Part shown: positions 1 through 31,786 of the stretch, piece after piece
Position numbering within the stretch: the stretch's first letter is position 1
Layout: the number at the start of each line of letters is the position of its first letter
Assembly: GCA_013288045.1 (NCBI GenBank)
Contig: JABDCP010000007.1
Coordinates: 1-50,416 of the forward strand
Reading direction: 5' to 3'
DNA length: 50,416 bases
Origin: Candidatus Babelota bacterium
GTDB lineage: Bacteria; Babelota; Babeliae; Babelales; Babelaceae
Position numbers and translations under genes: made by a program
The notes under the pieces: model-generated
Databases searched by the model: none
What the model was told of the DNA's origin: nothing
The model's input: the letters and a program-made list of their open reading frames with translations, nothing else

Positions 1-954
1 AAAGGGCTTATCGAGGGCGACTTTCTCGGGGTACGAGATGCCTCAACAGGAACTTATCGGTTGCGCCACGCCTACGCTGAGGTTAATACCCCACGTTGGA
101 GTTTCCTTGCAGGACAGTATTGGCATCCTATGTTTGTTGTCGACTGTTTTCCTGACACGATCTCATTTGCCAATGGTGCACCTATAGAGGCACTCGACCG
201 AGACCCCCAACTACGCCTTACCACACGAGGTGCTGACAAGGAATTTATTCTGGCTTTGATAGTAGGCCCGGACTATCCAGTTGTGGGACCTATTGGGACG
301 ACAGACATTACACGAAATGGGGTGATACCTGAGATTCATGCTCAAGTACGCTTATTTCCTTATACGGATGTGGTCATAGGAGCGGCCGGTAATTATAAAC
401 GGATAGCTCCACGCATAGAGAGTGACAAAGGGTTTGCCGTCCAAGAGAAAATCGATAGTGTTTGTTGCGAGGTCTATGCAGCCTATAATGGCAAAAAGTT
501 CCAGGTGCGAACGAAGTTTATTTATGACCAGAATGGTGCAAGTCTACTTCTTATAAGTGGCTTTGCGGTACAGTCTATAAATCCTCTTACCGGTCAGCAA
601 AATTATGCAAATACCCAAGCAGTGAGCGCATGGATAGATACTGCTTACTGGTTTCATAATGAAACGGTGAGCGTTGGAGGTTTTCTTGGGTATACAAAGG
701 CACTCGGGTCAACCGATCGTCTCTATATTGATAAAACAACGAAGCAGCCGGTGGTATTTGCACTAGATCCTACCCTTGCCTACCTAGGAAGGTTTGCGCC
801 GCGGATCAGATATAGAACAAATCTATTCCAATTTGGAGCAGAACTTGATATTACTTGGTCTGCGTATGGTAGACTAAATAATAGAGCGCAGGTAGTTCAT
901 GCTGTTCCTACAGCAGTGTACCGTATCTTGCTAGAAGCACTCTATTTTTTTTAG
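1..954 (+). CDS. Outer-membrane beta-barrel (porin-like) protein, 5' truncated by window edge
   Basis: The reading frame is open from base 1, so the gene starts upstream; only the last 317 or so codons are visible. The protein alternates polar and hydrophobic/aromatic residues in short strands separated by turns, for example around residues matching WSFLAGQYWHP and VSVGGFLGYTKALG, and it ends in Phe-Phe. A terminal aromatic residue is the usual BAM recognition signal of outer-membrane barrels. I infer a porin-like or transport barrel, but the exact family is not recognised. The next gene starts 27 bp downstream on the same strand, so it probably belongs to the same operon as the ion channel and binding-protein genes. 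The TTG at 61 is unlikely to be a real start because coding-like sequence continues upstream of it. Confidence 0.6.
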   Translation, partial: KGLIEGDFLGVRDASTGTYRLRHAYAEVNTPRWSFLAGQYWHPMFVVDCFPDTISFANGAPIEALDRDPQLRLTTRGADKEFILALIVGPDYPVVGPIGTTDITRNGVIPEIHAQVRLFPYTDVVIGAAGNYKRIAPRIESDKGFAVQEKIDSVCCEVYAAYNGKKFQVRTKFIYDQNGASLLLISGFAVQSINPLTGQQNYANTQAVSAWIDTAYWFHNETVSVGGFLGYTKALGSTDRLYIDKTTKQPVVFALDPTLAYLGRFAPRIRYRTNLFQFGAELDITWSAYGRLNNRAQVVHAVPTAVYRILLEALYFF

Positions 955-981
955 AGTATATGAAGTGATAGGATCGAACAG

Positions 982-2031
982 ATGGAGCAAAAAAATCTGC
1001 CAGTATTCACATCAGAATCGATGGCATACTTTTCAGTATATACGATTCTTTTCTCGGCGGTACTGATCTGCTTTTTTATGTATCGTGCAAGTCAGGAGTT
1101 TATTTCAAGTTCCTCAGATACCCTTGACCCTATGCCTGAGCTGCTTCCCATTTTGCCCAAGACTATTGAACAAATGGGGCAACCTGCAGAGGTGAAAGTT
1201 GGTCTGTATATCAAGGACTTTTCAGAGTTTAATATCGTCGATAACCGCTTTGAGTTTTCAGGAATCCTTTGGTTCTATTTTGATCCGAGTATCGTTTCGC
1301 TCGATACCTTAGGAAAATTCTCTTTTGAAAAGGGGAAGATCCTCTCGATATCGCAACCGTCTACCAGGATCGTGCAAGGGAAGCTACTCGCGCGCTATGA
1401 TATTCGAGTAAGCTTTAAAGCGAACCCAACATTTGCCGCATTTCCTTTTGATAGCCATACGATATGTATCACCATGGATAATAATAACGTCTCTCCAGGG
1501 GAGGTGATATTTGATTCAACCTATGATGAGCTGGTGCTTTCACCAGAGCTTTCCTATGCAGGATGGAAAATCTATGGGACCCGCGTATATCCTGGGTACT
1601 CAATTGCTCGCGTGGACAAATCGCATCGGGAGTATGATGTAGCTCATCCACGGGTTATCTTTGCCTTAGATTTTGTACATTCGGGGGTGCGTCAGGCGAT
1701 TTTGATTATTTTCCCTTTGCTTCTGCTCTTTTTTATGGCGATGTTCACTTTCGCTCTTGATATGGAAAATTATAAAACTTCTATTGCTTCCTTAACGGCA
1801 GGAGCTATAACCGGTATTTTGGCCTATCGATTTGTGATCGATCGGCTTGCTCCTCAAGTAGGGTATTTTATGGAGAGTGACTCGCTCTTCTTCTTATTTC
1901 TGTTTGCCGTTTGTATGGCCTTTTTTATCAATGTGGGGATACCAGGAATTCGAGATAGGTATCCCAGAACGATCGTGCTCCTGTTACATGCATTCGTAAT
2001 TATCGCATTCATTTGGATTGTGAGAGGCTAG
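982..2031 (+). CDS. Pentameric ligand-gated ion channel (Cys-loop/Pro-loop receptor family) homologue
   Basis: 349 residues with the pLGIC layout. An N-terminal hydrophobic segment (about 16-34) acts as signal or anchor. A beta-rich extracellular domain follows (about 70-235), with VKVGLYIKDFSEF and the ILWFYFDP motif near 95-102. The Pro-loop FPFDSHTICITM lies near 154-165. Four C-terminal membrane segments sit at about 238-258 (M1, with the conserved Pro in IIFPLLL), 266-285 (M2), 300-320 (M3) and 329-347 (M4). In the known family these channels form inner-membrane pentamers gated by periplasmic ligands. The AGGAT sequence just upstream may be the ribosome site. The next gene starts one base after the stop codon, so the channel is cotranscribed with a periplasmic binding-protein gene that could supply its ligand. 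The family call rests on motifs and topology; ligand and ion selectivity cannot be read from sequence. Confidence 0.78.
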   Translation: MEQKNLPVFTSESMAYFSVYTILFSAVLICFFMYRASQEFISSSSDTLDPMPELLPILPKTIEQMGQPAEVKVGLYIKDFSEFNIVDNRFEFSGILWFYFDPSIVSLDTLGKFSFEKGKILSISQPSTRIVQGKLLARYDIRVSFKANPTFAAFPFDSHTICITMDNNNVSPGEVIFDSTYDELVLSPELSYAGWKIYGTRVYPGYSIARVDKSHREYDVAHPRVIFALDFVHSGVRQAILIIFPLLLLFFMAMFTFALDMENYKTSIASLTAGAITGILAYRFVIDRLAPQVGYFMESDSLFFLFLFAVCMAFFINVGIPGIRDRYPRTIVLLLHAFVIIAFIWIVRG

Positions 2032-2032
2032 T

Positions 2033-2338
2033 ATGAAAAGAAGTAGCATAGTGATTCTGGGCTTAATCATGGGAGCTCCTCTTGAAGGTGCTTTTACGCT
2101 TAAGCAAGCTCAGAACTATGCAATGACTATTCAAGAAGCTCCCCATGTCCAGATAGGGGCAAATCAGTTTTACCCAGATTATTCAGCCTGGTATCGGCAG
2201 CAGGGCCCTTCGTACCTATCACGAGCTCTCATGTTCTTGGGTATTGAAGATTCCCATTGGACCTTTCAGAAATTTACCCAACTTCTTTCAGAGGTGACGA
2301 TCGAGCGCGAAAAAACAGGGCTATCAGGGTGTGTATGA
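2033..2338 (+). CDS. N-terminal fragment of the secreted phosphoesterase-like/PBP protein (frame broken)
   Basis: 101 residues starting with a Sec signal peptide (MKRSSIVILGLIMGAPLEGA). It starts one base after the ion-channel stop. Its tail, FTQLLSEVTIEREKTG, aligns with the N-terminal part of the paralogue at 4329-5312 (MRTLSHLTDVRKQEG). There the paralogue continues YQGKQAF, whereas here the frame stops at 2338. Reading in the frame of the following gene just upstream of its GTG gives QGYQGVYEV, exactly the continuation expected. Dropping one A from the A6 run at 2310-2315 would join both pieces into one 764-residue secreted protein. I therefore treat this as the 5' part of the next gene, not as an independent small gene. 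Sequencing error, true mutation and slippage are all possible. Confidence 0.7.
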   Translation: MKRSSIVILGLIMGAPLEGAFTLKQAQNYAMTIQEAPHVQIGANQFYPDYSAWYRQQGPSYLSRALMFLGIEDSHWTFQKFTQLLSEVTIEREKTGLSGCV

Positions 2339-4328
2339 GGTTGTTATAAATCCTCGTTCTGGCTCAGAATTTATTATGCTCGGTCCTTTATATGGGGCAT
2401 TTCATTCTCTGGTACGAGTTCTTACTGAGCTTGCCGCACGAGGTATCATAGACGAAAGCTTAAAGATTACCAAACCGGATACGTTTATCGTATCACTTGG
2501 TAACGTGGTTGATAACTCACCGCTTAATTTGGAAACGCTTACACTGCTATTAGAGCTTATGAAAGTAAATCCATCACAGGTTATCTATATTTCGGGAAGC
2601 CAGGAAACGGATAATACCTGGTTAGGATATGGTCTAAAAAGAGAGCTGATCCAACGGTTGGGCTCCACAAGCCTTGATAGTTCTATTTCTCGGTTTTTTT
2701 CGACACTACCGCGAGCGCTATTTCTCCAGGATGGTAACCAGGTGATTAAGATCAGTGATGTGCCTTCTTCGTCAGAGCTCAGGTGCCCTGCCTTGAAAGG
2801 ATCGGAAGGAAAGTTGCGCATATGTCCTATGGCACAGGATAAGGAGAAAGGGGTTGTTCCTCGCGTCTATATTACCGGTGAGCATCGGCTCATGAGCTAT
2901 CGCCAGAATTTTGGGTTAGCACTGGTTCCTTCGCAAGAAGGTGGGCTTACCTGGGCCATATTTAGTGCGCCTAACTTTTGGTATCGCCATAACTTTTCTT
3001 TCCAGTACGATGCATTTGTCATTCTTACGATTGAGAAGCCTTTTCCTCAAAGTGTGCTTACGCTCTATGCACAAGAAGTTGAAGAGCTTGATGGCTTTCA
3101 TAAACGTGCGTACTATGAAGCTATGACAGGCAGAAGTCTTATGAATACTGCCTTGATTTTACCACAGGGCGAAAATCCTTTCATACCTTCTTTAAAGGTG
3201 CAAAAAGAGCTTGAGGCTTGCAAGAAAGGTCAAAACAATGCGGTAAAAAAATTGGAGAAGGCTCCTTTGTATATTGGGTGTACACTTGATCTTACAAAGG
3301 GAGGATCGCCCATAGGGAGAGCTGTACGTGATGGTATTGCGCTCCGTATAAATAAAATAAATGCAGAAGGGGGAATTAATGGCCAAACTGTGCGCGTAGT
3401 ATTTATGGATGACGAGTATTCGCCTGAAAAGGCCCGCCAAAATGTTGAAGAATTTATTACGAAATACTCGAGTAATCTCTTTCTCTGCAACCTTGGAAGT
3501 CCTACGCTAGAAACGTATATTGATCTTGTTAAGCAAGAAAAGATTTTTCTCTTTTTTCCAATAACGGGTGCCCCGATATTTAGGAATGCTGATATTAAGG
3601 GAATTGTGCATTGGCGAGCATCCTATAAGACTGAAGCTCTCGCGCTTACTCGGTATATGATCGATACGCTTAAAGTGCGTAACTTTGCTTTTCTCTATCA
3701 GAGCGATTCCTATGGACTTGGTGCCTTGGAAGGGTCGAATCAGGTGATTAAAAAAGAGGGGATCAAACAGGTGGTCAACGTTGGTTATGAGCGTAATACT
3801 ACTACATTTGCTTCGCAAATAAAGCAGATCAAAGAGGCATCAGTTACCGGTCTTGGATTCTTTTCAACCTCGTTGGCAGCGACCGAATTTATTCGCCAAG
3901 CAGGAGTTGAATTCTTTATTGGTAAAAAGCTGTTCGCCTTATCTGATCTTGCTGATGAGTCATTTAAAAAGTTTGTAGCACAGCGAGGCCTTGATCTGAT
4001 TATCTCACAGTTTGCTCCAAATCCTATGACGAGTACTTTACCCATCGTTAAAGAATTCCGTCGAGCATTGAGTGAGCAAGGGCTTTCATTGGCGGATGTA
4101 TTTACCTTAGAAGGGTACATTAGTTCGAGTTTAATGCTGCATATACTCAGTAAAGCTGCAGACTATTCAATCGATTCTATAAATAAGATTATAGCGACGA
4201 TGAAAGACGAACTGTATAAGGGTCTTCCTCTTACCTTTGATCCTGACACCCGTGAGCTCGTTCATGAATTGTGGCTCGATGTAGGAAAGCATGAATGGAT
4301 TGAACAAAAAATAAATAAGGAGGCCTAG
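2331..4328 (+). CDS. Degenerate metallophosphoesterase-like domain fused to type I periplasmic binding protein (LivJ-like)
   Basis: 665 residues from a GTG at 2331, probably the bulk of a longer frameshifted gene that begins at 2033. Residues 1-250 follow the calcineurin-like phosphoesterase scaffold, but the metal-ligand motifs are replaced: GPLYGAFHSL for GDIHGN.., SLGNVVDNSPLN for LGDYVDRG.., and ISGSQE for RGNHE. Residues about 310-660 are a Peripla_BP_6 / branched-chain amino-acid receptor fold, with IGCTLDLTKGGSPIGRAVRDG, INAEGGINGQTVRVVFMDDEY and FLYQSDSYGLGALEG. In known families the PBP half binds small polar ligands such as amino acids in the periplasm. The phosphoesterase half looks catalytically dead and may serve as a scaffold. 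The gene is packed between the ion channel and its own partial paralogue (the stop at 4326-4328 abuts the next ATG). No ABC permease or ATPase is adjacent, so a sensing role is plausible. Confidence 0.75.
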   Translation: MYEVVINPRSGSEFIMLGPLYGAFHSLVRVLTELAARGIIDESLKITKPDTFIVSLGNVVDNSPLNLETLTLLLELMKVNPSQVIYISGSQETDNTWLGYGLKRELIQRLGSTSLDSSISRFFSTLPRALFLQDGNQVIKISDVPSSSELRCPALKGSEGKLRICPMAQDKEKGVVPRVYITGEHRLMSYRQNFGLALVPSQEGGLTWAIFSAPNFWYRHNFSFQYDAFVILTIEKPFPQSVLTLYAQEVEELDGFHKRAYYEAMTGRSLMNTALILPQGENPFIPSLKVQKELEACKKGQNNAVKKLEKAPLYIGCTLDLTKGGSPIGRAVRDGIALRINKINAEGGINGQTVRVVFMDDEYSPEKARQNVEEFITKYSSNLFLCNLGSPTLETYIDLVKQEKIFLFFPITGAPIFRNADIKGIVHWRASYKTEALALTRYMIDTLKVRNFAFLYQSDSYGLGALEGSNQVIKKEGIKQVVNVGYERNTTTFASQIKQIKEASVTGLGFFSTSLAATEFIRQAGVEFFIGKKLFALSDLADESFKKFVAQRGLDLIISQFAPNPMTSTLPIVKEFRRALSEQGLSLADVFTLEGYISSSLMLHILSKAADYSIDSINKIIATMKDELYKGLPLTFDPDTRELVHELWLDVGKHEWIEQKINKEA

Positions 4329-5312
4329 ATGAGGAAAGAAGGATACTATCTTGTATGGCCCCTTGCGATTCTAGGCGGACTGTTATTGGCAAGAGGAATT
4401 CAGATCCTCTACATAAGATCGCTGCCAGTAGAACGGCTCATGCGCACGCTTTCTCATCTTACAGATGTGCGAAAGCAAGAAGGATACCAAGGTAAGCAAG
4501 CCTTTGTTCTCTCACTACCTGAAGATTCGCAGATTATCCTCTTGGGAAATGTTCTTGGCAATTATGAGTCACTGAGGCAGATACTTAATGAACTTACTCG
4601 ATCCTCGGAGCTTACTTTGAAAGGGGCATTAAAAAAGGATCGCTATCTTATTATGAATGGTCCGTTCCTAGGGCCAACTGCAACTAATGGACAGGTGCTT
4701 GAGACTCTTGCTCAACTCATTGAGCAGAATCCCCAGACGGTCTGGTATCTTCGGGGACCTCAGGACGATTTTGGAAAATTGCGGGACCTTTCGCTGTTTG
4801 GCAAGGGGATGTCTTTTCTTCAAGCACGAACGGTAGGAGCTTTTTATGCAACCCTGCCGCGTGCACTCTATCTTCTTGCTGAAAATCTTAATGAGCCGCC
4901 AGTGCGTATTGGACCCTATGGTGCTGATAGTTCTCAATTTGATAGAATGGCATGCTATCCTGTTAATAAAGGACCGATACAGTCCGTATGTCACCTTGAT
5001 GATCTTTGCTATTATTCTGAAGGGACTCTCGCAGGTATCATTGATAGCGATGATCAAAAGCTCGATTGGGCAACTATGAAGGGTCTGCAACATGCAGATT
5101 CATCTTGGCATCTGATTTCAAGCCCATCTCTTGACTATACGCTGAGGTATGGGTATAGCACTTCTGCTTATGCGGTGATAACGGTAGGTAAAGACTTAGC
5201 ATCAAGTAAGCTAACCTACTTTTATGCACCTCTTGGAAGTGACAATTTTGTACAAGGTGAGAGCTATCCCCTCAAACGTGGGAAAGAAAAAGAAACGCAG
5301 GTGAAGCAATAG
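4329..5312 (+). CDS. Membrane-anchored degenerate metallophosphoesterase-like protein
   Basis: 327 residues. An N-terminal membrane segment (about 7-24, VWPLAILGGLLLARGIQ) is followed by a domain paralogous to the N-terminal half of the preceding gene. The phosphoesterase landmarks are recognisable but lack metal ligands: LLGNVLGNYESL, LIMNGPFLGPTATNGQ and WYLRGPQDDFG stand where GDxHGN, GDxVDRG and GNHE would be. Both proteins share FYATLPRALYL / FFSTLPRALFL. No binding-protein domain follows. The ATG abuts the previous stop, so translational coupling is likely. Dead phosphoesterase folds can act as binding or scaffolding modules; here the gene could tether or regulate the channel/PBP system at the inner membrane (inference). 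The last 44 bases of conserved 3' sequence recur at 7196-7239. Confidence 0.65.
   Translation: MRKEGYYLVWPLAILGGLLLARGIQILYIRSLPVERLMRTLSHLTDVRKQEGYQGKQAFVLSLPEDSQIILLGNVLGNYESLRQILNELTRSSELTLKGALKKDRYLIMNGPFLGPTATNGQVLETLAQLIEQNPQTVWYLRGPQDDFGKLRDLSLFGKGMSFLQARTVGAFYATLPRALYLLAENLNEPPVRIGPYGADSSQFDRMACYPVNKGPIQSVCHLDDLCYYSEGTLAGIIDSDDQKLDWATMKGLQHADSSWHLISSPSLDYTLRYGYSTSAYAVITVGKDLASSKLTYFYAPLGSDNFVQGESYPLKRGKEKETQVKQ
5260..5303 (+). repeat. 44-bp direct repeat, copy 1 (3' end of phosphoesterase-like gene)
   Basis: This stretch near the end of the 4329-5312 gene is identical base for base to 7196-7239. Both copies contain TATCCCCTCAAACGTGGG. Similarity continues weakly past both edges, suggesting the remains of a duplicated gene and not a short mobile repeat. 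Confidence 0.85.
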
Positions 5313-5349: not shown

Positions 5350-6708
5350 TTACATGATCTTTTCACAACGCACTTCAAAGTATGGCCCACCACCCTTTAT
5401 CCTCAATTGAACAATCTTGTTGACTTCATCTCTGATAAACTGGTAAACCATATTGGGAGCTTTATTTCCTGAGATCATAAATTGGTCTTGTGAAACTGGT
5501 ACAATCTTACCTTGGTCGGGTGTTGAGAGAGCATGATGCGCTTTTTCGAGGGTATAGCACTGTGGAAAAAGAGGATGGTTATAGATCCCTGCATACTCAT
5601 CAAACAGATCCGGCTCAATTGTTATAGGATCAGTATGAAGGTAATCATAGGGCAGACCACATACTATTGCCAAAAGAGCATCGCGTGCCTCATCAACCCA
5701 TGACTGCCAACAGTTGCTCAGAATTGCGATGATAATAGCATCATCAGTAAATAATGAAAGCGTTGATTTAAAACCACTTGATAACATGCCGCCGTGGGAT
5801 ATGAGCCTATGGCCGTAGATGTTGTTAACGAAGCATCCGTAGCCGTAACTACCTTGAGGATGATAAGCCGTGAACATGCTTTGTAAAGATTCCTTCATTA
5901 CTAAACGACCTGAAGTCAAAGCACGACCAAAGAGATAGAGATCTCCCACAGTTGCATGAAGGCCACCAGAGCCATTAAAGTTTTGTCTATACACATAATA
6001 CCCATTAACCAATTCATTGTTTGCGTTAAAACAGTAGCCCGAAGCGCAGTTTTTTATGATTTCAAAGTCGGTGGTGGGAAATATGCTCTCATGCATCTGG
6101 AGCGGATCTAGAATGTTCTTTTTAATGAAGAGATCGTATCTCATACCCGAAACCTTTTCGATGATTGATCCCAAAACTAAGTAACCGCCATTACTATACT
6201 GATAATTAGATCCTGGTTGAAATTCTAAGGGCTGGGCTTTAAAAAAAGCGAGCACTGCATCTGCTGAGGTCGGCAAAACAACCATTTCTAGCGGCATATT
6301 AGATCCTGAAAATCCGGAAGTATGGGAAAGAAGCTGATGAATCGTAATATCATCTCCCCGAGGAAAATCTGGCAGATAGGAACTTACCTTATCAGAAACT
6401 CGCAATAAACCTTTTTCCTGAAGATTCATGATGGCTGTTGCGGTTATCAGCTTGGTGATTGAGCAGATCGGAAATCGAGTGTTTGATCTATTGGGTACCT
6501 CAAATTCACGATGAGCAAACCCATAACCTTTGCTGAGTAGTATAGTATCTCCCTTGGCAACTAATACTGTTCCACTAAAGCGGTTTAACCGGGTAAGTTC
6601 CTGCATATACTTATCTAACTGAAATTGAACAGTGTTCTGCATGGTTTTACCTTCCAGGACCTGATAGCTTATAAGCATGAAAGGCAACAATGCTATTCTT
6701 GTGTTCAT
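5350..6708 (-). CDS. Serine beta-lactamase-like hydrolase (class C / AmpH / D-aminopeptidase family)
   Basis: 452 residues from the ATG at 6708, which has a GAGG ribosome site 7 nt upstream; the frame extends further 5' but without a better start. A short hydrophobic leader (MNTRIALLPFMLISYQVLEG) suggests export. The Beta-lactamase (PF00144) fold is shown by the nucleophile motif SITK (S83, K86), the YSN motif at 171-173 (QYSNGGY), and an HGG motif at 305-307 in place of KTG (LISHGGMLSSG). These are the signatures of the class C/AmpH/esterase group. Members hydrolyse peptidoglycan peptides, D-amino-acid peptides or esters, and some are beta-lactamases; the substrate cannot be assigned. It converges on the upstream operon with a 37-bp gap and has its own promoter. 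Confidence 0.85.
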   Translation of the reverse strand: MNTRIALLPFMLISYQVLEGKTMQNTVQFQLDKYMQELTRLNRFSGTVLVAKGDTILLSKGYGFAHREFEVPNRSNTRFPICSITKLITATAIMNLQEKGLLRVSDKVSSYLPDFPRGDDITIHQLLSHTSGFSGSNMPLEMVVLPTSADAVLAFFKAQPLEFQPGSNYQYSNGGYLVLGSIIEKVSGMRYDLFIKKNILDPLQMHESIFPTTDFEIIKNCASGYCFNANNELVNGYYVYRQNFNGSGGLHATVGDLYLFGRALTSGRLVMKESLQSMFTAYHPQGSYGYGCFVNNIYGHRLISHGGMLSSGFKSTLSLFTDDAIIIAILSNCWQSWVDEARDALLAIVCGLPYDYLHTDPITIEPDLFDEYAGIYNHPLFPQCYTLEKAHHALSTPDQGKIVPVSQDQFMISGNKAPNMVYQFIRDEVNKIVQLRIKGGGPYFEVRCEKIM

Positions 6709-6772
6709 ACATTTACCTCGAAGTTTCAAATTATAGGATATGAGCATCACATATATTCCCTGCTCCAAATTC

Positions 6773-6801
6773 ATAGTACTGAGAATTCTTCCTATTGACA
6801 A
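6773..6801 (-). promoter_or_regulatory. Putative sigma70-type promoter for the beta-lactamase-like gene
   Basis: On the minus strand a -35 TTGTCA (6796-6801) and a -10 TACTAT (6773-6778) are 17 bp apart, about 65 bp upstream of the chosen ATG at 6708. This also supports the downstream start over the upstream extension of the frame. Confidence 0.5.
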
Positions 6802-7264: not shown

Positions 7265-10200
7265 TTATTTAGAGCTGACAGGTTGGCCGATTTTGTCTTT
7301 TATCTGCTGGACACGCTGCAAAAGGCTTACTTGTCGAATAGTTGCTTGCTGAGTTTCCATTTTTGTTTTTGTAAGGAACTGTAGGTGCTCGGGAGCCTGC
7401 GCTGAAAACCCCCCATTCTTTTGTCGACTAGACGATTGCCTTGCGTTTATTTTTTCTCTAATAAGGGCCTGCAGGTCTTCTGGAGCATGCGCTAAAGCCT
7501 CCTGATATTTCTTTATTCCGAGTGGGATATCGGTTGGCACGCCAGTACAGTAGTAGTCGCCAAGGCTTATAAGGACTTGGGCTCGTATAGTTCTACTGCC
7601 ACCTCTGTCGAGAACGGTAAGCGCTTTTTCGTACCAATAAGTCGGAGGGTGTTGGTTACACCGGTATCTGAGGTCACCAAGGTTAAGTAGAGCTTGAGCT
7701 TCTAGATTTGTATTATCACCGTTAGTAAGCATGGCAAGCGCTGCTAGGTACCATTGACCGCTGTGGGTATGAGTTGCATCTAAATATCTCACCCGACCAA
7801 GACCCATGCATGCGGTAGCTCGTAATACGTTATCACCATTATCGCCAAGTATCCTGAGTGCTTCTAGATACCAATGAGAGCTATTAGCATATTCATTATG
7901 TATACCTCTATACTGACCATTACCAAGAGCAAGGCAAGCTTGTACTCGGAGACGTATAGTACCGTCGTTACCTAGGATTCTGAGCGCATCTAAGAACCAG
8001 TCAGCCTGAGTTTTGTGAGTATCATCGACGTAGTCTGTTTCCCCAAGACCCATAAGGGCTTCAGCATAGAGGTCATGATCGTTATCTCTATCGAGCATGG
8101 TGAGAGCATGGAGATACCATTGAACTTGTGTATGTCGAGAATCAGTATAGTTGGTATTGCCAAGTTCTATACACGCTTGGGCTCGAAGCCCTCTATTGCC
8201 AGTATCACCTAGGGTATTGAGTGCAGCGAGGAACCATGCAGCTCGAGTTTGGTGGGTTTCGTCGGTATAGTTTAGCTTACCAAGTTCAATCAGTGCTTGA
8301 GCTCGTAGAGCTGTGTCGCCATTATTAACGAGTCTCTTGAACTTATCAAGACGTATAATACGGGATTTGTCACGCTCAACATAGATCTGAGCCTGGTCTA
8401 ACTTTTGCTGAATGTTGTCTTTCGTTTCTTCTGATGCATAGGCTAAAGCCTGCTGATAAAAGGATACGCCTTGTGCGTTATTACCTGTCCTGCAGTGGTG
8501 ATTTCCAAGTCCGATCAGCGCGTGAGCACGTACAGTTTTATCACCTGTATCTCCTAGTTTTTTGAGAGCATCGTGGTACCATTGAGCATGATCTGGATGG
8601 GTCCTATCGGTATATTGGATATTACCAAGACCGATAAGAGCTTGAGCCTGAAGATCGTGCTCACCGTCATTACCCAACACATCGAGTGCCTTTAGATACC
8701 ATGTACTTCGCTCTTTGTCCTTCTCGACATAATGAGCATTGCCAAGGCCAATGAAAGCTTTTGCTTGAACATCTCTATCGCCATCTTCGCCAAGAACTCT
8801 CAACGCATCGAGGAACCACTCAGCATTATACGCATGTGCTTCGTCAACATACCGAGCGTTACCAAGACCGATAAGAGCTCGTGCTTGTAAGTTCTTTTCG
8901 CGATCCTTGCCAAGTACGGAGAGTGCATCAACATACCATTGAGCATGGCTCGTATGTGTATTGTCGGTATATCGAGCATTGCCCAGCCCAATAAGTGCTT
9001 GAGCAGCGATTTCAGGGGAGGCGCTTTGGCTGAGTAGAGAGAGTGCTTTCAGATACCAATGAGCTTGTCCTCCACTATGGAAATATTTGCCATTGCCAAG
9101 GCCAATAAGAGCCTTTGCCTGGAGTACTGGATCACCATCATTTTCGAGGAGCTTTAGTGCTTGAACAAACCAGTAATTCTTATCATGTGTCTTATTACTA
9201 TATTTTTTATTGCCAAGCCCAATAAGCGCTCGTGCTCGAAGATCGTTACTGCCGCTTGTGCCGAGCACCTCTAGTGCATCGAGGTACCAATCAACTTCTT
9301 TAGGATGGGCTCTGTCAGTATATCCCCAATTTGCAAGTCTAATAAGAGCTTGTGCTCGGACGGTTATATCCTTATCTTCCTTGAGAATGAGAAGGGTATT
9401 TAGGTCTGTATCACTGCTCGTGTAAACCGAGCCGCCACGTATAATCTCCTGTGAACGGTCTATCTTTTCCTGAATGGAAGGATGCATTTCTGCAGGGGCA
9501 CACGTTAAAGCTTGCTGAAAATAGGTTATTCCTTTGGCGTTAACCCTTTGTCCACAATAATAGTTACCAAGACCGACAAGAGCTTGAGCATATACGGCAC
9601 CGTGCGATTCTGCTTCAAGTACCATAAGTGCTTCTTGGTACCATATGGCTTGTGTTGGATGTTCCTTATCAACATATCTAGAATTCCCCAGGCCAATCAG
9701 AGCCTGGGCCCGAAGGGTACTGATCCCACTCTTACCCAGTATCTGGAGTGCTTCTCTAAACCATGAGGATTGGTCACGTTTTTTGGTGGTGTAGTGAGCG
9801 TTTCCAAGTCCAATGAGAGCCTGCGCATAAAGACTTCTATCCCCGTCGTCGCCAAGAATTGTGAGAGCTTCTAGAAACCACTGCTCACTTGGCCACATCT
9901 CATCATTAACATATCGCGTATTGCCTAGGCCAATACAAGCCTCAGCTTGTAAATCTCTGGTGCCTTCTTTGCTAAGAGTATTTCGAGCATCTACGTACCA
10001 ATCAGCCTGTCTTGGGTGTTGAGCATCAGTATGTCTGGCATGGCCAAGTCTCATAAGAGTTTGCCCTTTGAGATCTCTGTCCTCCTCTTTGTCCAATAAG
10101 CCGAGCGCATCTACATACCACTGAACGTAGTTTTGGCCAGTATCATGGGGTTCTTTGGCATTACCAAGGCCGATGCAGGCTCGTGCTAGTAGTTCTTTAT

Positions 10201-11479
10201 CGCCATTTTTACCTAGTAGTGCAAGGGCCTCGAGATACCAGAAATGACTTTTGGGATGCGTATCATCAGTATGTCTGACATTGCCAAGGCCGATGAAAGC
10301 TTGGGCCTGTAGGTTACTATTGCCATCTTTGCCTAGCAAATCGAGCGCGTTCAGATACCATTGGGCATCGGTGCTAAGCTTACTATCAGTATTATCAGTA
10401 TATTTGGCGTTACCAAGGCCAATGCAGGCTCGTGCTCGGAGGTCTTTGTCACCATTTTCGCCTAGTAGTGCAAGGGCCTCGAGATACCAGGAATGACTTT
10501 TGGGATGAGTATCATCAATATACTTGACGTTACCAAGTCCCATGAGTGCCTGAGCCCTTAGATTTTTGTCGCCGCGGGGACCGAGTACTTGAAGAGCCTG
10601 CTGAAACCAATATTCACGTCCTTTTTTTTTATCAGTACAGCGAGCATTGCCAAGACCAATAAGAGCTGCTGCTCGTAGTGTTATATCACCGTCTTGGCCA
10701 AGTTCGTCAAGGGCTTCACGGTACCACTGTGCGTGGTTTTTATGCTTTTTATCGGTGTATCTGGCGTTGCCAAGGCCGATATATGCTTTTGCTTTGAGCT
10801 CGGTATCACTGTAGATGGTTAACGCTTCGAGAGCTTCTACAAACCACTGGGCATCTGTCTGATGCGCTTCATCTTTATAGTATGCGTTGCCAAGGCTGAT
10901 AAGAGATTGAATAAAGATCTTCATATCCTTACCGTTGGAGGACCATTGTCGTGCTTTGAGATACCATGCTATTCCTTGATTAGGATCTTTTAGTGTGTAG
11001 TAATAGTGGTAGCCCAAGTAATAGAGTGATTTGCCATATGCTGAGGTAGTGCGACCCCACTCTTCAGCCTTCATAGCCCAGTCCTGAGCTTCTGATAACT
11101 GGCCGTTTCTTTGCATAATTTTTGCAAGGCATCGAGCACTATGCGTTTTGATAGAGAGAGAAGAGCTTTGTTCCGTAAGTAGCTCAAAGATTTGGGTAGA
11201 AAAAGATATTGCTTCTTGATGGTCAAAGAGGTGTCGGTATTCATTAGCAATCGTATACCAGGTTTCACAATTTTTTCTCAGAGAGTCTTCTTCTGCAAGA
11301 AGTGTGTGATGCAGATGCAGCATGTTCTGAAGTTCATTGGGTGTAAGCAAGCTATACTCGCACTTTTGGGGAGCAACAAGGACAACTCTTTTTTTGAGAA
11401 CTGATACGGACGAAGGCAAAGTTTGCTGAGGGGTGGCAAGCAATCCTACTAGTATGACAACATAAGAAGGTCTTATCAT
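7265..11479 (-). CDS. Giant secreted TPR/Sel1-like solenoid protein with about 27 tandem repeats
   Basis: 1404 residues from an ATG at 11479, with AGGA about 10 nt upstream. An N-terminal signal-like segment (MIRPSYVVILVGLLATPQQT) is followed by a TPR-like region to about residue 190. About 27 repeats of 38-42 residues come next, with consensus RAQALIGLGNxRYTD..H......WY..AL..LG..GD..L. The repeats fall into three blocks (12, 8 and 7 units). Each block closes with a variant unit containing YYC/HHC, YFQQAL and a Gln/Lys-rich helix (APAEMHPSIQEKI, ASEETKDNIQQKL, APEDLQALIREKI). TPR and Sel1 solenoids bind proteins; a secreted one of this size in a host-associated bacterium is a candidate surface or effector protein, but that role is inference. 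There is no catalytic motif. The monocistronic layout gives no pathway clue. Confidence 0.85.
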   Translation of the reverse strand: MIRPSYVVILVGLLATPQQTLPSSVSVLKKRVVLVAPQKCEYSLLTPNELQNMLHLHHTLLAEEDSLRKNCETWYTIANEYRHLFDHQEAISFSTQIFELLTEQSSSLSIKTHSARCLAKIMQRNGQLSEAQDWAMKAEEWGRTTSAYGKSLYYLGYHYYYTLKDPNQGIAWYLKARQWSSNGKDMKIFIQSLISLGNAYYKDEAHQTDAQWFVEALEALTIYSDTELKAKAYIGLGNARYTDKKHKNHAQWYREALDELGQDGDITLRAAALIGLGNARCTDKKKGREYWFQQALQVLGPRGDKNLRAQALMGLGNVKYIDDTHPKSHSWYLEALALLGENGDKDLRARACIGLGNAKYTDNTDSKLSTDAQWYLNALDLLGKDGNSNLQAQAFIGLGNVRHTDDTHPKSHFWYLEALALLGKNGDKELLARACIGLGNAKEPHDTGQNYVQWYVDALGLLDKEEDRDLKGQTLMRLGHARHTDAQHPRQADWYVDARNTLSKEGTRDLQAEACIGLGNTRYVNDEMWPSEQWFLEALTILGDDGDRSLYAQALIGLGNAHYTTKKRDQSSWFREALQILGKSGISTLRAQALIGLGNSRYVDKEHPTQAIWYQEALMVLEAESHGAVYAQALVGLGNYYCGQRVNAKGITYFQQALTCAPAEMHPSIQEKIDRSQEIIRGGSVYTSSDTDLNTLLILKEDKDITVRAQALIRLANWGYTDRAHPKEVDWYLDALEVLGTSGSNDLRARALIGLGNKKYSNKTHDKNYWFVQALKLLENDGDPVLQAKALIGLGNGKYFHSGGQAHWYLKALSLLSQSASPEIAAQALIGLGNARYTDNTHTSHAQWYVDALSVLGKDREKNLQARALIGLGNARYVDEAHAYNAEWFLDALRVLGEDGDRDVQAKAFIGLGNAHYVEKDKERSTWYLKALDVLGNDGEHDLQAQALIGLGNIQYTDRTHPDHAQWYHDALKKLGDTGDKTVRAHALIGLGNHHCRTGNNAQGVSFYQQALAYASEETKDNIQQKLDQAQIYVERDKSRIIRLDKFKRLVNNGDTALRAQALIELGKLNYTDETHQTRAAWFLAALNTLGDTGNRGLRAQACIELGNTNYTDSRHTQVQWYLHALTMLDRDNDHDLYAEALMGLGETDYVDDTHKTQADWFLDALRILGNDGTIRLRVQACLALGNGQYRGIHNEYANSSHWYLEALRILGDNGDNVLRATACMGLGRVRYLDATHTHSGQWYLAALAMLTNGDNTNLEAQALLNLGDLRYRCNQHPPTYWYEKALTVLDRGGSRTIRAQVLISLGDYYCTGVPTDIPLGIKKYQEALAHAPEDLQALIREKINARQSSSRQKNGGFSAQAPEHLQFLTKTKMETQQATIRQVSLLQRVQQIKDKIGQPVSSK

Positions 11480-15656: not shown

Positions 15657-16554
15657 CGGCTTTCTTTTTGAGGCTCGTTATCTCATCAAAATAGAACATA
15701 GCTAATCCGATCATCACCATAAGAAGCGACACAAGGTACTGTACTTTTATTTCTTCATTGAGGAAAAACCAGCCAAAGGCTGATGCGCAGAGTGGTGTCA
15801 AAAATCCTGCAAATGCCATGAAGGTTGAGCTATAGGTTTTAAGAAGTGCCGCCTGTAGGTTTGAGCAGATCAGATTACTAATGACGATTTGCAGTGCTAA
15901 AAAACCAGCGAAGGTAAGCGGATCTTTGAAGATCCAGACTGGCTCAACGATGAAAGAAAGATTCAATGCTATGAATCCCCCAAAAAGCATCGTAAGGCCA
16001 TTGGCGAGTGAAGCGGGGCATTGTCGCGTTTTTACTAGATGTTTAAGCGCGATGAGGTTATAGCCAAATGAGGCAACTGCACCGAGCATAGCAATCTCGG
16101 GCCATGAGAAGAGCCCAAATGAGCCTGCAAGCGTCTCAAAGGAACTTCCTGTAAAGAGGGTTGGCATCATGCCCAAAAAGCCGAGCATGAGTCCTATACT
16201 TTTCTGATATGAAAGACGTTCTTTATGAAACAAATAGGAAAATAGGGCGGTAAAGAAGGGCATGAGTGTGAATATAAACGCAGCTTTGGTCGATGATAGG
16301 TAGTTTAAGCCCCAGGCACGAAGACAATAGGGTACTACGATACCAAAAAGAGTTACCTGCATAAATGCTGGCCAATCTTTCATTTGGAAACGGTATGTTG
16401 TAGACTGAAAAAAGTAATAGTAGAGCGCAAGGCCAATGCCACCTATTATCATGCGGCTGCCTACCACATAAAAAGGACTTGCATAGAACAGAGTAATTTT
16501 GCCCAGCGTAAAGCTGAAGCCAAGCAGAGTATAGAGTAGAAGAATGAGAATCAT
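15643..16554 (-). CDS. EamA/DMT-family transporter
   Basis: 303 residues, almost entirely hydrophobic, with about ten membrane helices in two halves, as in EamA (drug/metabolite transporter) permeases. Typical features are the N-terminal LLLYTLLGFSFTLGKI, the glycine-rich helix VVGSRMIIGGIGLALYYY, and the late helix AFAGFLTPLCASAFGWFFLNEEI, which matches the PVxAxxxGxxxLxE motif of EamA domain 2. Substrates in this superfamily range from amino acids to nucleotide derivatives and cannot be predicted here. The gene ends inside the ABC-F coding end (14-bp convergent overlap) and starts about 100 bp from the divergent protease gene. Confidence 0.85.
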   Translation of the reverse strand: MILILLLYTLLGFSFTLGKITLFYASPFYVVGSRMIIGGIGLALYYYFFQSTTYRFQMKDWPAFMQVTLFGIVVPYCLRAWGLNYLSSTKAAFIFTLMPFFTALFSYLFHKERLSYQKSIGLMLGFLGMMPTLFTGSSFETLAGSFGLFSWPEIAMLGAVASFGYNLIALKHLVKTRQCPASLANGLTMLFGGFIALNLSFIVEPVWIFKDPLTFAGFLALQIVISNLICSNLQAALLKTYSSTFMAFAGFLTPLCASAFGWFFLNEEIKVQYLVSLLMVMIGLAMFYFDEITSLKKKAVSFE

Positions 16555-16654
16555 GGACGCCTGTTATGTTTCTTGTGTTATACAAAATCATAGCATATTC
16601 CTTAAAAAAAGAATTGCTTCATTAAGGCTTGGCTTAGTGAGGCTCCACTTAGTA

Positions 16655-17890
16655 ATGAAAGCGTTACTTTTGTTCTTAGTGCTAGCGGGAGGCTCTGCTG
16701 AAGCTCGTCAGTGGACGATATATCTGTATATGGAGGCCTCTGATTCCTATGTAGAGGCATGTACATCCGTGCGTCAGCTGCAGGATGCTCTAAAGGATGA
16801 CCTTGAAGGTCGCATTGCTGTGCATGTTGATATACAAGTCGGTACTTCAGCAGAGCGAATTATCATTGAACGAGGGACTTCGAGCCATACTACGGTTGAA
16901 GTGCCTTTCAAGCGCCTGGAGTTTCTAAAAGAGGGTGTTAGGGGAGCATTTAGTTCAGCAACTGAAGGGAACTCCTTACTCATTGTCTCAGGCCATGGCA
17001 CGGGAATTCTTGCTCCGACGTTTGATAGTGCTCAGCAGAAATGGCTCTACGAGCCTGACGAAGGCCGATCTCCCTGTAAGCGCTACTGCGATGTGCGTAT
17101 TAAGGAGTTCTATCGGCAAATAGAACATATAATGAACGGTAAATCGATGCTTGTTGCACGTGCTGGAGGCTCATTTCTGTCGATTCATGATCTTCATGAG
17201 TTGACGAGCTACGCGACCTCTGTGCTTCAAAGAAAACTTGATATCCTGGGATTTGATTCATGCTATATGGCTATGCTTGAAGTTGCCTATCAGATAAAAG
17301 ACACAGTACACTATCTGGTTGCATCGCAAGATTGCGAGGAGAAAGATGGGTGGGACTACAAAAAAGTCATAGAATCCTTGAGTGAATATTCTGCTTTAAG
17401 GGCTGGTAAGCGTCTTGTCTATAGCTACGAGCGGAGTCAAATACTGAAAGGTCATGAGCGGTTCAGTCTTTCATTGCTTGATCTTACCTCAATGAACTAT
17501 TTAGCAGAGGTTATTGATAAGCTCGTTAATACCATCTTACAGATAGATCATCTTACGGAGATCTTATGTCGTGCTCGCCTATCACTTCATCCGGTGACGG
17601 CATTGCCGTTTTATGTTGATATGAGGGAATCTATTGAAGCATTATATGCTGAACTTATGGAGCATCAGCTTACTCCCGATACCGAATTGCTTATCAGTGA
17701 ACTTTTGCATGCTCGGGAAGTCCTAAGTCTTATGGTAGATGCTTCAGTTGCAGGGCCTTTGTGTAAGACTTTGCAGGGATGCTCATGGTATTTCCCGCTT
17801 TCGCACATTGATAGTTCGTATGCAGGATCATTTGCAAACGAGCGCCAGTGGATGAACTTCTTGAGGTACTTCACCTCAGGGATTCACTGA
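16655..17890 (+). CDS. Secreted clostripain-like cysteine peptidase (family C11)
   Basis: 411 residues from the ATG at 16655; the frame is open back to 16544, but the downstream start creates a clean signal peptide (MKALLLFLVLAGGSAEA). The C11/caspase-like catalytic dyad is visible: His114 in LLIVSGHGTG and Cys203 in LGFDSCYMAMLEVAY. The family motif DTVHYLVASQDCEEKDGWDY follows. C11 peptidases cleave after Arg/Lys and are often secreted. The C-terminal part after about 300 is family-specific helix. It converges with the secreted 17884-18612 gene, overlapping by 7 bp. It is a candidate exported protease; the substrate is unknown. Confidence 0.82.
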   Translation: MKALLLFLVLAGGSAEARQWTIYLYMEASDSYVEACTSVRQLQDALKDDLEGRIAVHVDIQVGTSAERIIIERGTSSHTTVEVPFKRLEFLKEGVRGAFSSATEGNSLLIVSGHGTGILAPTFDSAQQKWLYEPDEGRSPCKRYCDVRIKEFYRQIEHIMNGKSMLVARAGGSFLSIHDLHELTSYATSVLQRKLDILGFDSCYMAMLEVAYQIKDTVHYLVASQDCEEKDGWDYKKVIESLSEYSALRAGKRLVYSYERSQILKGHERFSLSLLDLTSMNYLAEVIDKLVNTILQIDHLTEILCRARLSLHPVTALPFYVDMRESIEALYAELMEHQLTPDTELLISELLHAREVLSLMVDASVAGPLCKTLQGCSWYFPLSHIDSSYAGSFANERQWMNFLRYFTSGIH

Positions 17891-28282: not shown

Positions 28283-29902
28283 TCATATGTCAGATGAGTG
28301 GCAGGTCTTAGGACACTTGATAGAAACTGCAAGTGGATCACTTGCATCTAGGAACCCAAGGAAAGGGGTACCAAGAGAAGTTGTTGGTCCCAGACAAAAA
28401 CCATTTTGGCAGATTTGGGATGCAGGGCAAGTAGTACCTGTGCAGGGTTGTAGAGGGCCCCAAAAGTTACTGCTCACCAAGTAGGCAACGTTGCTTCCGG
28501 CATCCTTAATATCAGGATTGAACCCAGAAAATGAGTTGCAATGAGCATCAATGATTGCTGTACCTATATTACCAGTAGCCGTGGTTAGAAAGGCTTGACC
28601 GGTGCCCGTGAAACAATTGTGTTCAGCCGTTATGTAAAGTGGGGAGTAAGTGCCGCCGGAGGAGGGGGGATCTATTTGTATTCCAGTGGTTCCATTAAAG
28701 ATGTTTCCTTTGATATCAGTTGTGACGGCAGATTTTCCAGTATTTCCAGTACCACCGAACTTAATGCCTGCTTCGTAGAAAGTGCCTCCGGTTAAGGTGG
28801 GTATGGTAACTGAAACGGTATTTCCATAGAACCGATTGTCTTGTTTGATAGCACTAGATAAAGTATCTGCGTAAAATTCATCCACATTAGTACTTACTGA
28901 GTTTTCTACCACTATTTCCGATGATGAGCTGGTATTAACAGAGAATATAACAATTACATTCTGTTTCCCGTTTTCAGATTCGGTTTCTGTAAATGAGCAG
29001 CTATCAACTCTTGCTTGTAAGTTTGATGCATTATTGAGTGCCAATCGAATTTCGTTCCCAGCTGGCGCGCCAACATTGTAAAAAGATACGTTCTTAACAA
29101 GAAGAGTCTCTGTGGAGCTTTTAGTAGCACCTAAATTCACGTTGATGCCATTAGCGCTTATGCCATTAGCACTTTTATTATTAAAATCATGTAAATACGA
29201 ATCTTTGATAACGACGTTAGAGGAGGCGCCTTTATCAGGTGCTGTTTCTATACCATTTTTGGTAATCGTAGTAAGCTCACACCCGCATACAGTTAATTCT
29301 CTTGATACGCCGCTGCCCGTGGGGGCGTCGAAGATTCCAGCGGAAAAAGGAACAGGAGCAGGTACGCTGCTCTTATCATTGCGAATTGTTACGTTTTCAA
29401 TAAGAGCTTTTCCTGACTGTGGGCAGGTTCCTGTAATTGCTGATGCTTGCGTATCTAGTAGATCAAAACCATCAATGGTGACATTTTTCACAATAAGATT
29501 TTCTGCCTTGTCATAATTGATTGCGGAACCTAACATAGAAGTAAAGAAGATATTTTCAATGGCTCCATCGCCTATAACGTTAACTGCATTGGTAGTTAGC
29601 TTAGGGAATACGGCTACTTTAGAGTCACATATGTCACCAATGAGCTTTTGATTGGTGAGGGTGATACCATCGGTTAACGCAACCGCTGAGGGAAGCACAA
29701 TAAGGACGTCCCAGGTGCTCGCCGCAGCTTCTTTGAGTGTTGCAAAAGGATGCTTTTTAGTGCCAGTTCCTCCTGATGGAGCACCACCTTGAACAAATTT
29801 TACGATTTCTCCGTTATGGCGGTGTTTGTCCGATTTTGCTAACGCCGGTGCGAGCAAGGTAAGGGTTAGAAGTAACCCAAGAGATTTAGTTAAGAGCTTC
29901 AT
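28283..29902 (-). CDS. Secreted parallel beta-helix (pectin-lyase-fold) protein 1
   Basis: 539 residues from the ATG at 29902 (GGGGA 6 nt upstream); the 40 codons 5' of it cover the promoter and are not translated. Signal peptide MKLLTKSLGLLLTLTLLAPALA. A DUF1565-like entry (VKFVQGGAPSGGTGTKKHPF) with the KHPFATLKEA motif leads into a right-handed beta-helix, seen as repeated short strands such as AENLIVKNVTIDGFD, GKALIENVTIRND and SSNVVIKDSYLHDF. The C terminus has a compact Cys cluster (PCTGTTCPASQICQNGFCLG) that could form disulfides. Such folds act on or bind polysaccharides; catalytic residues cannot be pointed out. It is a close paralogue of the next gene. Confidence 0.8.
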   Translation of the reverse strand: MKLLTKSLGLLLTLTLLAPALAKSDKHRHNGEIVKFVQGGAPSGGTGTKKHPFATLKEAAASTWDVLIVLPSAVALTDGITLTNQKLIGDICDSKVAVFPKLTTNAVNVIGDGAIENIFFTSMLGSAINYDKAENLIVKNVTIDGFDLLDTQASAITGTCPQSGKALIENVTIRNDKSSVPAPVPFSAGIFDAPTGSGVSRELTVCGCELTTITKNGIETAPDKGASSNVVIKDSYLHDFNNKSANGISANGINVNLGATKSSTETLLVKNVSFYNVGAPAGNEIRLALNNASNLQARVDSCSFTETESENGKQNVIVIFSVNTSSSSEIVVENSVSTNVDEFYADTLSSAIKQDNRFYGNTVSVTIPTLTGGTFYEAGIKFGGTGNTGKSAVTTDIKGNIFNGTTGIQIDPPSSGGTYSPLYITAEHNCFTGTGQAFLTTATGNIGTAIIDAHCNSFSGFNPDIKDAGSNVAYLVSSNFWGPLQPCTGTTCPASQICQNGFCLGPTTSLGTPFLGFLDASDPLAVSIKCPKTCHSSDI

Positions 29903-29959
29903 AGTATTCCCCACTTTATTAGGATTTTGGTTTCTTGGGCGTAGTACCCAGTTACCATA

Positions 29960-29989
29960 ATAGTAGCAGAGGGGTGATGTTGACTGCAA
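29960..29989 (-). promoter_or_regulatory. Promoter of beta-helix gene 1
   Basis: Minus strand: -35 TTGCAG (29984-29989), 18-bp spacer, -10 TACTAT (29960-29965), 58 bp upstream of the ATG. The same arrangement is kept in the second copy (31787-31816), which supports function. Confidence 0.55.
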
Positions 29990-29994
29990 GAGTT

Positions 29995-30027
29995 CCTCCC
30001 TGTGGTATTTTTTGTACCACAAGGAGG
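29995..30027. repeat. Hairpin between the two duplicated beta-helix genes
   Basis: CCTCCCTGTGGTA (29995-30007) pairs with 30015-30027 with one mismatch around a TTTTTTG loop. It is the counterpart of 28125-28157. It lies 128 bp after the stop of beta-helix gene 2 and just upstream of the promoter of gene 1. Confidence 0.65.
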
Positions 30028-30154
30028 CGATTGACTGATGTTATTGACTTTTGGGTGCTTGATAGAGTTGATCTATAGACCTTTCTCTGCGTCTCTGTCC
30101 TTTTCTTTCATGTCTCACTTCATCAGAACACTTGACGGTTTGAAGCACAGCGGC

Positions 30155-31729
30155 TCATATGTCAAATGAGTGACAGGGTTTAGGACACTTGATAGAGGCC
30201 GTAAGTGGATCACTTGCATCTAGGAACCCAAGGAAAGAGTTTCCAGGGCTGCCAAGAGAAGTTGTTGGTCCCAGACAAAAACCATTTTGGCAGATTTGGG
30301 ATGCAGGGCAAGTAGTACCTGTGCAGGGTTTTAAAGGGCCCCAAAAGTTATTGCTCACCAGGTAGGCAACATTGCTTCCAGCATCTTTAATATCAGGATT
30401 GAACCCTGAAAATGAGTTGCAATGAGCATCAATGACTGCTGTACCAATATTTCCCGTAGTCGTGGTATCAAATGCATTACCGGTGCCTGTGAAACAATTA
30501 TGTTCAGCCGTTATATACAATGGGGAGTAAGTGCTACTGGAGGAGGCAGAGATTTGTATTCCAGTGGTTCCATTAAAGATGTTTCCTTGTATATCAGTTA
30601 TTACTGTGCCAGCAGAAGTGATACGTGTGTTGTAGAAAGTGCCCCCCGTACTGGTTGGTATGGTAACGGAAACGGCATTTCCGTAAAGTCTATTCTCTTG
30701 GTTGATAGAATTTTTTAATCTCTCTGCAAAAAATGCATCAACATTAGTGCTTACTGAGTTTTCTACCACTATTTCTGATGATGAACTAGTATTTCTAGAG
30801 AGAATACCAAATACATTCTGGGTCCCGCTTTCAGATGAGGTTTCTGTAAATGAGCAGCTATCAACTCTTGCTTGTAGGTTTGATTCATTATTGAGTGTGA
30901 ATACAATTATGTTGCCAAATGGAGCGCTAACATTATAAAAAGATACTTTTTTAACAAGAAGAGTCTGTATGGAGCTTTTAGTAGAACCCAAAATCAAGTT
31001 TATGCCATTAGCGCTAGCATTATTAAAATCATGTAAATACGAATCTTGGATAACGACGTTAGACGAAGCTCCATTATCAGGTGCTATTTCTATACCAAAA
31101 TTAGTGATCTTAGTAAGCTCACAACCGCATACAGTTAGTTCTCTTGATACGCCGCTACCCGTGGGGCTATCGAAGATGCCGGCATTTGCACCATTATCGT
31201 TGCGGATAATTACGTTTTCAATAAGAGTATTTCCAGATTGTGGGCAGGTACCGGTGATTGCTGGTGCTCCTGTAGGTGGTGTCTTTGTATTAAAACCATC
31301 AATGCTGACATTTTTCACGATAAGATTTTCTGCCTTGTCATAATTGATTGCGGAACCTAACATATTAGTAAAGAAGATATTTTCAATGGCTCCATCGCCC
31401 ATAACGATTACTTCATTGGTAGTAAGCTTAGGAAATAGAGCTACATTAGAGTCACATATGTCACCAATGAGCTTTTGATTGGTGAGGGTGATACCATCGG
31501 TTAACGCAACCGCTGAGGGAAGCACAATAAGGACGTCCCAGGTACTCACCGAAGCTTCTTTGAATGTTGCAAAAGGATGCTTTTTAGTGCCAGTTCCTCC
31601 TGATGGAGCACCGCCTTGGACATATTTTACGGTTTCTTCGTTATTGCGGTGTTTGTCCGATTTTGCTAACGCCGGTGCGAGCAAGGTAAGCGTTAGGAGT
31701 AACCCAAGAAATTTAGTTAAGAGCTTCAT
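30155..31729 (-). CDS. Secreted parallel beta-helix (pectin-lyase-fold) protein 2
   Basis: 524 residues from the ATG at 31729 (GGGAAATACT upstream, as in copy 1). Same signal peptide apart from one residue (KFLGLLL), same VKYVQGGAPSGGTGTKKHPF entry, beta-helix strands and terminal Cys cluster (PCTGTTCPASQICQNGFCLG). Relative to copy 1 it has small in-frame deletions in the strand region (for example around AGIFDSPTGSGV and the ITSAGTVITDI stretch) and a short insertion near the end (SPGNSFLGF). The indels keep the frame, so both copies are probably functional. Role unknown; the family suggests a secreted carbohydrate-binding or surface protein. Confidence 0.8.
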   Translation of the reverse strand: MKLLTKFLGLLLTLTLLAPALAKSDKHRNNEETVKYVQGGAPSGGTGTKKHPFATFKEASVSTWDVLIVLPSAVALTDGITLTNQKLIGDICDSNVALFPKLTTNEVIVMGDGAIENIFFTNMLGSAINYDKAENLIVKNVSIDGFNTKTPPTGAPAITGTCPQSGNTLIENVIIRNDNGANAGIFDSPTGSGVSRELTVCGCELTKITNFGIEIAPDNGASSNVVIQDSYLHDFNNASANGINLILGSTKSSIQTLLVKKVSFYNVSAPFGNIIVFTLNNESNLQARVDSCSFTETSSESGTQNVFGILSRNTSSSSEIVVENSVSTNVDAFFAERLKNSINQENRLYGNAVSVTIPTSTGGTFYNTRITSAGTVITDIQGNIFNGTTGIQISASSSSTYSPLYITAEHNCFTGTGNAFDTTTTGNIGTAVIDAHCNSFSGFNPDIKDAGSNVAYLVSNNFWGPLKPCTGTTCPASQICQNGFCLGPTTSLGSPGNSFLGFLDASDPLTASIKCPKPCHSFDI

Positions 31730-31786
31730 AGTATTTCCCACTTTATTAGGATTTTGGTTTCTTAGGCTTAGTACCCAGTTACCATA

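Follow-up and report, generated by a model that had tools for sequence, protein, structure and literature searches.

A phylum-wide pentameric ligand-gated ion channel of Dependentiae encoded with putative binding protein-pseudophosphatase adaptors

Genes for a pentameric ligand-gated ion channel (pLGIC; Cys-loop/Pro-loop superfamily) subunit distantly related to human neurotransmitter-gated channels, a type I periplasmic binding protein (PBP) and a protein with a PPP-type phosphatase fold recur together across Dependentiae. On balance, we favour the view that they form a lineage-specific sensory channel system gated via trans-acting PBP-pseudophosphatase adaptors. The locus analysed here lies in a stretch of 50,416 nucleotides (the window), which is the whole of contig C7 in a draft genome of 1.04 Mb. 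Its open reading frames (ORFs) follow one another on the plus strand nearly without gaps, at 1-954 (open at the contig edge), 982-2031, 2033-2338, 2331-4328 and 4329-5312; the frames at 2033-2338 and 2331-4328 overlap (Table 1). All ORFs given in a preliminary description, which had been made from the sequence of the window, were found in place.

Table 1. Features of the channel locus, in nucleotide positions of the window
Feature	Position	Strand	Basis
Protein of the outer-membrane beta-barrel type, truncated 5' by the contig edge	1..954	+	Homologue signature and signal peptides
pLGIC subunit, 349 aa	982..2031	+	AlphaFold2, Foldseek, profile against GLIC
Extra N-terminal transmembrane helix TM0, residues 11-38	1012..1095	+	Model helix H11-38; hydrophobic 19-mer in homologues
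Pro-loop FPFD, residues 154-157	1441..1452	+	Conservation in 53 homologues
M1-M4 helices; M2 = residues 261-289, with T9', F16' and acidic 19'	1690..2025	+	Alignment and model
Adaptor 5' part: signal peptide and ~80-residue helical module, truncated by frameshift	2033..2338	+	Module profile 2-80/81; single intact ORF in relatives
A6 run, point of frame loss	2310..2315	+	Sequence and comparison with relatives
Adaptor 3' part (PPP-like and PBP), 665-aa open frame	2331..4328	+	ORF list
PPP-type (PP1/PP2A-like) phosphatase-fold domain, 0/4 tested metal ligands kept	2352..3137	+	Family profile, ligand alignment
Type I periplasmic binding domain (Peripla_BP_6), LivJ-like	3267..4277	+	E=1.4e-40; closest solved structures 4kv7 and 3lop
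Membrane-anchored second PPP-like protein, no PBP	4329..5312	+	Profile match; PPP-only genes in sister loci L031, L032 and L033

The product of 982-2031 matched no Pfam family above the cut-off. PF02931 and PF02932, whose cut-offs are an annotation rather than a structural criterion, left the window channel unmatched and gave weak matches in 2/53 and 1/53 family members, respectively. NF033918 (LGIC_1) matched the protein weakly (E=3.2e-4), below the NCBIfam cut-offs, and in a phmmer search with the single sequence the membrane region of a bacterial pLGIC was matched weakly (E=0.38). Searching its own genome with PF02931 produced no match, but the controls were equally silent. A profile of 53 channel homologues matched GLIC with E=4.5e-15 over the region from the Pro-loop to M4, spanning the Pro-loop, M1, M2, the M2-M3 loop and M3. 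The AlphaFold2 model, computed with 22 sequences, was confident (pLDDT 90.8, pTM 0.82) and showed a beta-sandwich ectodomain with four membrane helices after it. When this model was compared with the PDB using Foldseek, every listed match was a pLGIC, with TM scores of about 0.5-0.6 that we ascribe to a differing angle between the two channel domains. Because the profile match to GLIC, the confident model and the exclusively pLGIC matches among those listed agree, we regard the predicted pLGIC fold of this protein, already proposed in the preliminary description, as settled. The family falls below standard annotation cut-offs and would therefore otherwise stay hidden. No relative of the window channel was found in an IMG/VR scan, which thus gave no sign of viral origin.

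The Pro-loop and four C-terminal membrane segments noted previously were both confirmed: among the 53 homologues, P155 is invariant and F154 is conserved in at least 90%, M1-M4 are present, and the M2-M3 proline P291 is conserved in the channel family. To these segments a fifth membrane helix has to be added at the N-terminus (TM0), seen as a hydrophobic 19-mer in 51/53 homologues. In many members TM0 is preceded by a leader of 10-20 residues, which favours a membrane anchor over a cleaved signal. According to the alignment with GLIC, on which the pore numbering is based, the pore lumen has small, chiefly polar side chains at 2', 6' and 9', F16' and, in 41/53 homologues, an acidic 19'. Judging from this acidic ring alone, the channel is probably cation-selective. 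Position 9' is mostly occupied by Thr or Ser rather than by a bulky hydrophobic residue, and pore behaviour could therefore differ. The window channel has the beta-sandwich ectodomain, the Pro-loop, M1-M4 and the invariant M2-M3 proline in common with GLIC, ELIC and sTeLIC; we take its acidic 19' to be as in GLIC and its F16' as in ELIC. Unlike these channels, that of Dependentiae has an extra N-terminal membrane helix, Thr/Ser at 9' and dedicated adaptor genes, and lies below the Pfam and NCBIfam cut-offs.

The channel was detected in 65/101 genomes of the phylum (43/68 among the good ones), and homologues were present in 33/50 relatives. A collection scan with profile A2 yielded 16 loci; their titles name Dependentiae, TM6, Babeliales or Babeliaceae, except for a few that read only 'bacterium'. 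A channel copy was counted as linked when a PBP and/or PPP-like gene lay on the same strand within 400 bp. Among 63 copies at loci taken solely because they held a channel, 51 were linked, 41 of them to both genes, and 12 had neither neighbour. Adding a second batch, partly chosen by PPP hits, gave 69 linked copies out of 81. The genes occur in two layouts: the channel followed by a fused module-PPP-PBP gene (38 downstream cases), or separate genes in the order PBP, channel, PPP (24 with the PBP upstream and 19 with the PPP downstream). These results strongly support the channel, PBP and PPP-like protein as a conserved unit.

By inspection, almost all PPP-family matches above about 170 bits lay on channel contigs, with at least three exceptions, one of which was near a contig end. 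Families without listed channels (f3, f6, f13 and f16) gave weak PPP matches or none, and family f19 has channels without PPP-like matches. Mirror-tree correlations were 0.53 for channel-PPP and 0.50 for channel-PBP, values that carry little weight as shared ancestry was uncontrolled. At six loci (L042, L057, L062, L070, L074 and L075), the channels bear N-terminal extensions of about 220-1180 residues. Neither these nor the C-terminal extensions of split-layout PPP proteins gave a convincing Pfam match in those sampled, and a comparison with other ORFs found no similarity except that the channel extensions of three genomes are related to each other. One locus (L065; contig C9 of genome G045, 779-3972) contains three tandem channel genes with no adaptor nearby, possibly encoding a heteromeric channel.

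The protein encoded at 1-954, described previously as an outer-membrane barrel, had no Pfam or NCBIfam match. Its homologues carry signal peptides and a C-terminal aromatic signature of the outer-membrane type, sequence features that support the barrel label. A barrel gene lies directly upstream of the channel on the same strand in 6/81 copies and was not found in several channel-bearing genomes. The barrel is an occasional partner of the channel system; of the single envelope-spanning module that had been envisaged, the channel, PBP and PPP-like protein hold together, but the barrel does not belong to the constant part. On the other side, the system adjoins a minus-strand gene (5350-6801) for a hydrolase of the serine beta-lactamase/penicillin-binding family (PF00144, E=1e-61). 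Elsewhere in the window are a 1404-aa protein with GLGNxxYTDxxH-type repeats that scored as both HEAT and TPR (7265-11479, minus strand), a clostripain-family (C11) peptidase (16544-17890, E=2e-22) and a pair of neighbouring proteins (579 and 553 aa) that gave no Pfam match (28283-31816, minus strand).

The preliminary description had treated the window locus as four separate frames. All of these frames exist, but 2033-2338 and 2331-4328 are one gene split by a one-base shift, because the N-terminal module matches its own profile to position 80 of 81 in the first frame while the PPP domain begins in the second, because relatives carry an intact single ORF (mostly about 720-880 residues, and longer with extra PBP domains), and because the second frame reads KQGYQGVYEV, resembling the junction in those relatives. 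The order of the intact adaptor is signal peptide, helical module of ~80 residues, PPP-like domain and type I PBP domain, and the AlphaFold model of one intact relative reached a pLDDT of 86.2 and a pTM of 0.80. The loss of frame at the A6 run may reflect a real indel, slippage read-through or an assembly error. Being frameshifted, the window copy may be non-functional. A second locus in the same genome (L031, contig C12) has an intact adaptor and an intact channel, together with a PPP-only gene and a barrel. A decaying copy of the system was observed in a genus mate (L051; contig C57 of G002), where the adaptor is broken across three frames and the channel gene contains stop codons.

The LivJ-type binding domain reported for 2331-4328 was recovered as Peripla_BP_6 at residues 313-649, with 140 bits against a cut-off of 31.7. 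The model of the intact relative likewise matched LivJ-type proteins, 4kv7 and 3lop being the best. In the window PBP, the motifs TGA and DSYG, which presumably line the binding pocket, can be aligned to their counterparts in 4kv7. The adaptor PBP thus has the type I fold and sequence in common with Leu-Ile-Val-binding proteins, but it differs from LivJ in having no Liv permease genes nearby, in its fusion to a PPP-like domain and in its tandem repeats. Adaptors with tandem arrays carry two, three, four or five PBP domains. Domains within one chain are 32-65% identical, a degree of divergence that would fit the binding of different ligands. At L098-L100 (contig C5 of G095, about 81-122 kb), a single channel is followed downstream by an array of adaptor genes, among which two ORFs of 2324 and 2386 aa have five tandem PBP domains each.

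The domain ahead of the PBP had been called degenerate and phosphoesterase-like, a label that holds and can be sharpened to the PPP (PP1/PP2A) type. The resemblance to the PP2A catalytic subunit is weak for the single domain but clear for the family profile (E=3.3e-9), and a remnant of the SAPN motif is present. The product of 4329-5312 is a paralogue of this domain, as proposed. The domain is homologous to PP1, PP2A and PP5 but differs from them in being secreted and in having lost most of its metal ligands. Four ligands were scored (D64, H66, D92 and N124 in PP1 numbering), leaving out H173 and H248, which could not be aligned with confidence. Among 51 channel-associated PPP domains, three kept all four and 14 kept none. 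Several split-layout members retain D64, D92, N124 and GNHE, with H66 replaced by Q, and two of the split-layout proteins reach the Metallophos cut-off. In a tree, the 51 channel-associated domains were separated from 15 others by one branch with a support of 100/100. From this single, fully supported branch, it seems likely that one secreted phosphatase lineage became associated with the channel on one occasion, its active site decaying afterwards to varying degrees; we infer the root, and hence the direction of the change from phosphatase to adaptor. Most other secreted-looking PPP proteins of the phylum have intact GDxHG, GDYVDRG and GNHE motifs. Many such proteins are encoded separately (L118-L129), as a rule unlinked to channels, and are possibly effectors or periplasmic enzymes.

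Two other roles for such genes were rejected. The Liv-type permease PF02653 occurs in 30/87 genomes, mostly as single matches, and was never near the channel in any of the 87, in agreement with the earlier remark that a local ABC permease is lacking; a Liv-type ABC importer was rejected for this reason. In bacterial ART-LGICs, a PBP-I domain is fused to the channel or a PBP-II is encoded in the same operon (Tasneem et al., 2005, PMC549065); this association was proposed to concentrate or sense ligand, and a role in chemotaxis was suggested (PMC549065). MCPsignal domains were found in none of the 87 genomes, whereas seven of the control genomes were positive, and with no MCPs a chemotaxis role cannot work here in its usual form.

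Taken as a whole, the earlier interpretation is partly supported. Both findings on which it was to stand or fall were made: the pLGIC fold was predicted with confidence, and in relatives the channel recurs next to PBP/PPP-like genes. Gene order and architecture suggest that the module signals through an action of the PBP on the channel. We infer contact, gating direction, ion selectivity, ligand and downstream use as follows. Separate secreted adaptors would take over ligand recognition, in whole or in part. The LivJ-type domain would close on an amino-acid-like solute, while the PPP-fold body and N-terminal module would sit on the channel ectodomain; the mostly catalytically dead PPP-fold domain and the module would relay the state of the PBP to the ectodomain and so change the open probability. 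A channel often has several adaptors, or arrays of up to five PBP domains, which would convert different solutes into one electrical output. This output might plausibly be a shift in membrane potential or pH by which an obligate intracellular parasite could recognise whether or not it is within a host. Among Dependentiae, one cultured member lives as an energy parasite; its extracellular stage is inactive and its transporters depend on a membrane potential (PMC6561590). More tentatively, we propose that this may be a new mode of pLGIC gating, in which one pentamer integrates many solutes through exchangeable pseudophosphatase-PBP adaptors that are encoded separately and include five-PBP arrays. 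We know of no characterised pLGIC that senses through adaptors of this kind.

The most serious competing explanation is that the channel is gated directly, by protons as in GLIC or by small molecules at the ectodomain, and serves pH or turgor homeostasis, with the PBP-PPP proteins as co-regulated modulators or stabilisers. Among the nearest relatives of solved structure are proton-gated GLIC and alkaline-gated sTeLIC, and some of the 12/63 channels without adaptors may work alone. However, adaptor linkage in about 80% of copies, the two layouts and the amplification of PBP domains exceed what co-regulation predicts, and we consider direct gating unlikely. A mere chance neighbourhood with no functional link is scarcely credible: nothing beyond those unaccompanied copies speaks for it, whereas the 51/63 linked copies are spread over many families of the order, and with ~1000 genes per genome, a few of them of this kind, our unsimulated estimate for chance linkage is no more than a few percent.

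The PBPs might instead pass solute to the channel pore in place of the missing ABC permease. The phylum depends on imported host metabolites (PMC6561590) and its PBPs have no local permease; nevertheless, pLGIC pores conduct ions and not amino acids as far as is known, M2 is ordinary with F16' kept, and there is no energy source, making such an uptake route improbable. It is also very improbable that the PPP domain, in the split layout if not throughout, remains an enzyme whose action on a phosphorylated substrate is controlled by the PBP. Such activity would fit the split-layout members that keep D64, D92, N124 and GNHE and the two that reach the Metallophos cut-off, but split-layout members carry the H66 to Q replacement, just 3/51 domains have 4/4 ligands and the window copy has 0/4.

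The association of a PBP with a pLGIC is in itself known since 2005 (PMC549065). The systems of Tasneem et al. share it with those of Dependentiae, in which the PBP gene adjoins the channel on the same strand; they differ in that the Dependentiae PBP-I is separate, is often fused to a pseudophosphatase and forms arrays, without MCP chemoreceptors. Periplasmic tuning of a pLGIC is likewise known from DeCLIC, where a calcium-sensitive periplasmic N-terminal domain modulates the channel (PMC12664993). The accessory domain of DeCLIC is fused and built of jelly-roll lobes, whereas the accessory parts in Dependentiae are encoded in trans and have PPP and PBP folds. Our literature search found no paper tying Dependentiae to ligand-gated channels, and as far as the literature was searched, the trans adaptors, the pseudophosphatase link, the PBP arrays, the extra helix and the phylum-wide use appear to be new.

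Few prokaryotic pLGICs have, to our knowledge, an established physiological role. If the proposed mechanism is true, research on pLGICs would gain a bacterial channel that has dedicated partners and a testable natural role in sensing. For Dependentiae, protist parasites with little known signalling, it would provide a candidate host-sensing device. The system also offers a case in which a PPP phosphatase fold has apparently been recruited as an adaptor.
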